Origin: Saccharofermentans sp.
Lineage (GTDB): Bacteria; Bacillota; Clostridia; Saccharofermentanales; Saccharofermentanaceae
Assembly: GCA_024683485.1 (NCBI GenBank)
Contig: JAIKYD010000107.1
Location: 1 to 64,000 of the forward strand
Length of the DNA: 64,000 bases
Direction of reading: 5' to 3'
Under the pieces are notes generated by a model that had not been told where the DNA came from, made no database searches, and saw only the letters and a program-made list of their open reading frames with translations. A program made the translations under genes and the position numbers. Position 1 is the first letter of the stretch. The number at the start of each line of letters is the position of its first letter. Of the stretch, positions 137 to 722 are shown one piece after another.

Positions 137-173
137 AAAAAAGCGTCTCACCATAAAAGATGAAACGCTTTTG
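137..173 (-). terminator. Rho-independent terminator of the GG-leader peptide gene
   Basis: On the minus strand AAAAGCGTTTCA (172-161) pairs with TGAGACGCTTTT (150-139) across a 10-base loop, and a run of T follows. One pair is G-U in this orientation and would be C-A in the other, so the hairpin is best formed in the minus-strand transcript. It lies about 80 bases after the stop of the peptide gene and directly before the intron start. Confidence 0.8.
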
Positions 174-254: not shown

Positions 255-566
255 TTACTGTCCCATAGGAGGGTTTCCGATCTGAGGTCCTTTGATCTCA
301 GGAAGTTCTCCAATCTTGGGACCTTTGACTCTCATCATGCGAAGCTGTTCCCATTCAATGAAATCAGTTGAGTATCCGTGAGCGGCAGCCCATTCACGTG
401 CTTCATCAAGATAATTGAAAGTTTCTACTACGTTGCCGGTCTCATCATCTATTACCTCGATAACTTCCTTATCGGCAACATTGTACCTTGGGCGGAAAAA
501 CAGGTAACCGCCTGAGACCTTATCGAGTTCAGTAGCGTTAAGTTCATTCTTATCTTTGGTTTTCAT
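255..566 (-). CDS. Small secreted peptide precursor with double-glycine leader
   Basis: The 103-residue product begins with a leader of the bacteriocin/ComC type: a charged N-terminus, then LNATELDKVSGG, in which the Gly19-Gly20 pair would be cut by a PCAT-type (C39) exporter. The mature part would be about 83 residues, acidic in the middle. It ends in an imperfect 11-residue tandem repeat, KGPKIGELPEI (81-91) then KGPQIGNPPMG (92-102). It has no cysteines, so neither disulfides nor lanthionines are possible. The ribosome site AAGGAGGAAAG precedes the ATG well. The gene stands alone between its own promoter (606-634) and terminator (137-173). No peptidase-exporter, immunity or modification gene lies in this window. 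Secretion through a C39 exporter is inferred from the leader; the role (bacteriocin, signal or adhesin-like peptide) is unknown. Confidence 0.75.
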   Translation of the reverse strand: MKTKDKNELNATELDKVSGGYLFFRPRYNVADKEVIEVIDDETGNVVETFNYLDEAREWAAAHGYSTDFIEWEQLRMMRVKGPKIGELPEIKGPQIGNPPMGQ

Positions 567-605
567 TTTTCTTTCCTCCTTGACGATGATTTGTTTTACG
601 GCTTA

Positions 606-634
606 ATTATCACAGGCGGCAATTTGTCAGACAA
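606..634 (-). promoter_or_regulatory. Sigma-A-type promoter of the GG-leader peptide gene
   Basis: On the minus strand TTGTCT (634-629) and GATAAT (611-606) are separated by 17 bases, with TG just upstream of the -10 (extended -10). Transcription would start near 598, about 30 bases before the ATG. Confidence 0.6.
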
Positions 635-722
635 TCAGTAATGTTGTGCCGTTCCGTTGATAAAGCAACATATATCGGGTTTGATGTTGCAAATCATAAA
701 ATGACAGCTTACTGATAATCAA

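Follow-up and report, generated by a model that had tools for sequence, protein, structure and literature searches.

Double-glycine (GG) peptides resist easy interpretation when no transporter is linked to them (PMC7018657), and the precursor gene near the start of the stretch analysed here, a window of 64,000 nucleotides, raises the same difficulty: what would a GG-leader protein do, and how would it leave the cell, when no immunity gene or exporter adjoins it on the one flank available? The window opens contig C76 of assembly G000 (2.52 Mb, 125 contigs, 81.75% complete) and the contig ends at window base 1; the upstream neighbour is a GGDEF/PAS gene in the same direction, with the precursor's own promoter between the two. 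A first-pass annotation had read here a GG-leader precursor with its own promoter and terminator and without an exporter or immunity gene nearby, and each of these points was upheld.

By inspection, the leader reads L(-12)..L(-7)..V(-4)SGG, the C39 recognition pattern, and on sequence grounds the precursor matches the pattern of PCAT-exported GG-leader peptides, with hydrophobic residues at -12, -7 and -4 followed by Gly-Gly. These three positions were hydrophobic in 71/71 tallied peptides, a uniformity that the selection pattern itself demands. The TIGR01847 model for bacteriocin-type leaders gave 13.5 bits, below its curated cut-off of 15.7, Pfam and NCBIfam scans of the ORF returned sub-threshold matches only, with no family at cut-off, PADLOC gave no match and the protein was not found among plasmids. 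The mature part comprises 83 residues and no cysteine, which supports the earlier view that it is unlike ordinary bacteriocins. It ends, as had also been described, in two adjacent 11-residue KGPxIG repeats, which agree at 6 of 11 positions; when the mature sequence was shuffled 20,000 times, an adjacent 11-mer repeat of equal quality appeared in 4 cases. The gene is monocistronic, with its own promoter and a strong terminator (z = -4.9; 0/200 shuffles equally stable). Coordinates are given in Table 1.

Table 1 Features of the precursor gene and its promoter in the window.
Feature	Position	Strand	Basis
Precursor ORF, GG leader	255..566	(-)	open reading frame with ATG start, 103 aa; G051 homologue 44% identity
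Double-glycine leader, 20 residues, MKTKDKNELNATELDKVSGG	507..566	(-)	reading of ORF; sub-threshold TIGR01847
Mature core, residues 21-79	330..506	(-)	predicted beta-hairpin and helices, low confidence, mean pLDDT 55
Tail repeat 1, VKGPKIGELPE	297..329	(-)	translated sequence
Tail repeat 2, IKGPQIGNPPM, then GQ and stop	264..296	(-)	translated sequence
Shine-Dalgarno AAGGAGG	575..581, approximate coordinates	(-)	sequence
Intrinsic terminator, 10-bp GC-containing stem and T run	about 137-172	(-)	folding vs shuffles
Regulon promoter region	576..694	(-)	conserved with relatives, matrix score
Promoter dyad CAACA/TGTTGC	690-684, 671-665	(-)	alignment
Promoter element ACATTACTGATTG	644-632	(-)	alignment
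-10 GATAAT	611-606	(-)	20-bp spacer after ACATTACTGATTG

The promoter came to light in an alignment with a gene of RUG12201, a 'Ruminococcaceae bacterium' MAG whose tail protein (L007) is the same as that of G034, a genome of the window's own genus. The last 13 residues of its product, IKGPQIGNPPMGQ, are identical to those of the window protein and the core is different, and at the DNA level it is the upstream region that is conserved and not the core. The conserved elements are, in order, a CAACA-N-TGTTGC dyad, ACATTACTGATTG, 20 bases and GATAAT; the distance to the start codon is in most cases about 80-90 bases. The window holds an exact match at 606-644 (-), and the 50 sites with up to two mismatches have about 110 bp of conserved sequence in common, laid out in a fixed geometry. 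Run over 0.92 Mb of fetched loci, a matrix built from these 50 sites gave 78 places, most of which had also trained it; the reversed control gave none. The unbiased test was therefore the one in which the window site was left out of training, and there it scored 102.6 against -52 for the next best place in the 64 kb (68 against -25 with the promoter flanks alone). Given the exact match and this held-out score, the promoter is real. Allowing three mismatches, the pattern occurred in 57 of 85 genomes of the genus; a hand tally gave about 200 matches against 23 in the reversed control, so that many genomes with a single three-mismatch match represent noise.

The first ORF after the 78 sites was a GG-leader gene by pattern in 46 cases, a proportion biased upward by the fetching of loci for GG genes or promoter matches, another gene in 31, and absent in one. 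Sorted by eye, 11 of the 31 others are lipoproteins or have signal peptides, 6 are prepilin-like, 4 have further GG or AG leaders, 4 are membrane peptides of very short length, one is a cyclic-nucleotide-binding protein and 5 are unassigned; of two prepilin-like products compared with Pfam N_methyl, one lay above the cut-off and one just under it. Nine of the 78 sites lie in the window's own genome, six before GG-leader genes and three before others. The window gene is thus one of many dispersed genes under one elaborate promoter that precedes predicted GG-leader, lipoprotein and prepilin genes, and the label "orphan", which the first-pass annotation had attached to it, has to be given up: relatives occur in its own genome and across the genus.

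Other genes behind this promoter are of interest in themselves. In three regions (L141:10300-12900, L138 near 3301 (-) and L135 near 2908) it stands before 27-aa hydrophobic peptides and also before a protein with two cyclic-nucleotide-binding domains, adjoining a PAS/guanylate-cyclase-type protein (Pfam assignments of both made on the L066 copies), a set that is possibly a sensing arm. Five lipoproteins with the regulon promoter (L135:178-924 (-), L138:5280-6020, L141:7574-8320 (-), L139:9895-10623 (-) and L134:1312-1767) contain GGW...QVVSGTNHCFL segments; four of these proteins have two such segments each. All five look cystatin-like to us, an assumption for which Pfam and PDB profile searches gave no confirmation.

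A protein search of 148 relatives returned matches in four genomes including the window's own, all of one genus. Two GG-leader proteins of the window's genome align weakly with the window protein over leader and core, and the closest homologue, G051:C35 (44% identity over residues 1-89), has RGPKIAMPG at the place of the first repeat. Compared with a second, 112-aa family by profile (the A2/A3 comparison), the window type aligned over the leader only. Of 115 genomes of the taxonomic family, spread over five genera, 15 had the 112-aa family, and each of them belongs to the window's genus. Neither the L007 tail protein in phages nor the A3 family in viral contigs was found. In four pairs of relatives dN/dS was 0.55, 0.18, 0.20 and 0.36, from which the GG-leader relatives look like real, constrained proteins; the pairs exclude the window gene, which has no relative of sufficient closeness.

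The fold of the window core is a guess, since the model is poor (mean pLDDT 55). In the model of the 112-aa family, residues 22-100 are predicted with confidence (about pLDDT 90) and the tail is disordered (below 55). Foldseek and VIA-align searches with this model reached no better than E = 3.2 (Foldseek) and Z = 3.2, which is not convincing, and in a PDB sequence search no hit to the profile of either family fell below E = 0.2. Some GG-leader relatives carry LysM or CxxC pairs. At L066:11085-11333 and L027:1849-2100 the GG leader is followed by a LysM domain as the mature part (Pfam PF01476, 49.7 bits for L066), that is, a peptidoglycan-binding domain joined to a PCAT-type leader.

The tail is not confined to the window protein. 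Among 3102 ATG-to-stop ORFs in the fetched loci, 102 fitted the GG-leader pattern, and the motif [IVLM][KREQ]GP[KQRE][IVT] was present in 18 of these 102 against 1 of the 3000 others, and the last 40 residues of all 3000 lacked it. Near-identical orthologues are counted among the 18, which therefore do not represent as many independent events. By reading, 14 of them belong to the 112-aa family; the rest are the window gene, its G051 homologue, L083 with a Cys-rich core and L032 with a CxxC core and the motif internal, so that the IKGPxI tail would stand in about four core contexts. Self-assembly of the repeats, which the first-pass annotation also suggested, is a conjecture, and most relatives have the motif once and not twice. 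The tail DNA pattern (up to two mismatches) occurred in only 2 of the 85 genomes, the window's and G034, from which the exact NPPMG ending appears rare and the looser IKGPxI common among GG proteins. No paper mentioning KGPQIG was found in the open-access literature searched. The suggestion that the repeats could be binding units has gained ground: the tail recurs on different predicted cores and is disordered in the best model, as a binding unit might be. It is a short linear motif common to several cores and probably docks them to one and the same extracellular or envelope partner.

No C39 exporter, near or far, was found in the window's own assembly, where the first-pass annotation had proposed to look for one; as this assembly is 82% complete, the exporter may be unassembled. 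Across the genus, 32 of the 85 genomes had strong C39 matches (G053 included, though split), weaker matches, mostly about 300-aa frames, not being counted as exporters. Strong matches were present in 20 of the 27 genomes with peptides, defined by leader-covering matches (model start up to 7, short frame, E up to 0.1), against 12 of the 58 others (p = 6e-6), and at E up to 1e-3 in 15 of 20 against 17 of 65 (p = 1e-4); these statistics take each genome as independent and are not corrected for kinship. Among tail-bearing genomes the exporter was present in 8 of 13, no clear enrichment (p = 0.07). The first-pass annotation had expected homologues to keep the GG site and genomes with the gene to encode a C39-type exporter. 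The homologues do keep the site, and the second expectation is not borne out in G074, which is 99% complete and has two members of a related tail family, one with the tail itself; no C39 exporter was found there or in G011, also 99% complete.

An inspection of homologues and their neighbours had been proposed, and the closest homologue, in G051, is accompanied by an exporter. The operon encodes, in order, a GG peptide, a TetR protein, a short HlyD-like protein, TIGR03796 (904.8 bits, cut-off 853.3) and TIGR03797 (709.9 bits, cut-off 709.4), by which matches it is NHLP-type. The HlyD-like protein (151 aa) reached 28.5 bits against TIGR03794 (cut-off 156.2), over its N-terminal part only, and the tail families had no NHLP or Nif11 leader match. 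Related exporter operons were found in other genomes; among eight operons inspected, a degenerate form of the regulon promoter stood on that of G051 only. TetR was considered as master regulator and dropped, a different element lying upstream of TetR in several exporter operons; at L076, L079 and L085 this place is taken by a conserved GTGATAAA...TTTATCAC-like palindrome, unlike the regulon dyad. The ABC clusters G000:C109 and G074:C12, considered as alternative exporters, had no C39 match and by eye resemble a different transport cluster. Precursors beside a more distant C39 exporter (L043:2569-2904, L044:2547-2885 and L046:2565-2924, all (-)) end in TGPLG repeats, another Gly-Pro repeat tail, behind a long leader that we take to be Nif11-like.

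The most likely product of the gene is a small folded protein that leaves the cell by way of its double-glycine leader. A regulator would switch expression on, and the leader would bring the protein to a PCAT-type exporter with a C39 peptidase, in this genus an NHLP-type TIGR03796/TIGR03797 system, which would recognise it through the hydrophobic residues at -12, -7 and -4. The cut after Gly-Gly would free a small folded core with a flexible C-terminal tail, 83 residues in all, and the tail would dock the protein to a common partner. Through one regulated promoter on many separate genes, the regulon would yield lipoproteins, prepilins and a range of differently folded GG-leader proteins that together remodel the cell surface and its surroundings, probably for attachment or community life. 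It is the presence of prepilins and lipoproteins under the same promoter that points to surface and community functions, by analogy with the EbfG proteins of Synechococcus (PMC4997328, PMC8092324). As a whole, the reading of the product as a secreted accessory protein of a surface and secretome regulon, one that docks through the shared tail, seems to us evenly balanced between right and wrong.

The main rival is a role as a weapon, in which the genes would form a variable arsenal of GG-leader toxins, bacteriocin- or microcin-like effectors of competition, in species-specific sets and served by one NHLP-type transporter. GG leaders and NHLP-type exporters are classically associated with bacteriocins (PMC2887384), and the GG-peptide repertoire does differ between genomes, 71 mature parts falling into 39 clusters. 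However, the window gene stands alone between promoter and terminator with no immunity gene beside it, some relatives bring the LysM or CxxC pairs described above, and lipoproteins and prepilins appear to use the same promoter, and we judge a weapon role somewhat unlikely. Very unlikely, in our view, is a peptide pheromone consisting of the C-terminal KGPxIG segment, or a fragment, freed after export: a short, Pro/Gly-rich conserved C-terminus in a stretch predicted to be disordered would suit a signal, as would a conserved IKGP before a species-variable end, but G034 and G000 each hold different tail variants within one genome, no adjacent receptor gene was seen, and pheromones need no folded carrier of 60 residues.

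The tail might also lack a function of its own, having spread by recombination among paralogous genes, like the leader and the promoter. Between the window and RUG12201 genes, which also have promoter and leader in common, the final 42 bases (13 codons and the stop) are identical at 39 positions. Nevertheless, all three differences are synonymous, and in an alignment of 15 members of the 112-aa family, 13 keep KGP (L058 and L072 being without a KGP tail) across tails that have diverged far more than those of the window and RUG12201 genes; this combination suggests selection on the residues, and we consider spread without function quite unlikely. That the peptides of the window lineage are relics without an exporter, or users of another one, is suggested by eight genomes (G000, G074, G041, G058, G011, G040, G070 and G042) in which neither a C39 exporter nor an NHLP-type ABC protein over cut-off was found. 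We regard this as unlikely, as each of the nine regulon sites of G000 has an open ORF behind it, in one case truncated by the end of a contig, and the incompleteness of that assembly may account for its missing exporter.

PCAT-exported GG-leader proteins are already a known kind, and we know of no IKGPxIG tail in one such set, EbfG1-4. The EbfG1-4/PteB system of Synechococcus elongatus, as the relevant parts of its reports describe it, likewise has small GG-motif proteins secreted with a C39 peptidase transporter, in biofilm development, and a type IV pilus system belongs to that biology too (PMC4997328, PMC8092324); there, however, loss of pilus assembly leads to biofilm, whereas here prepilin genes share the promoter, and the likeness is drawn from descriptions. 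The PCAT1 substrate CtA of Clostridium thermocellum, likened by description, is a GG-leader polypeptide of 90 residues whose leucines at -7 and -12 are recognised, but no shared-tail family was seen in the available part of that report (PMC6959990). The NHLP/NHLM system (TIGR03794/03796/03797; PMC2887384) resembles the relatives' exporter operon in the two components over cut-off and a short HlyD-like partner, and differs in that the tail families lack its leaders and the partner falls far below cut-off. The pneumococcal Rtg peptides are, like the set described here, co-regulated GG peptides, with one PCAT and an inverted repeat in their promoters, but in the account available they lie in one locus with the PCAT, whereas window-type genes are dispersed (PMC7018657). 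We found no description of a large, dispersed, promoter-defined set with a common tail on different cores in the open-access literature searched.

Through their shared promoter, dozens of scattered genes in a Ruminococcaceae genus would form one secreted set. If this is right, the promoter, and not homology, could be the guide to the small secreted proteins of these bacteria, most of which are uncultured. A bolder proposal, to which we give a modest chance well short of even, is that IKGPxIG is a portable C-terminal address tag on PCAT-secreted small proteins, through which a common surface partner would capture unrelated cores born with the same promoter and GG leader. If true, this would be a plug-in secretome in which the leader at the start and the tail at the end are fixed and the middle is exchanged. 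The shared tail offers a testable handle and, if the reading is right, possibly a new sorting or docking motif.
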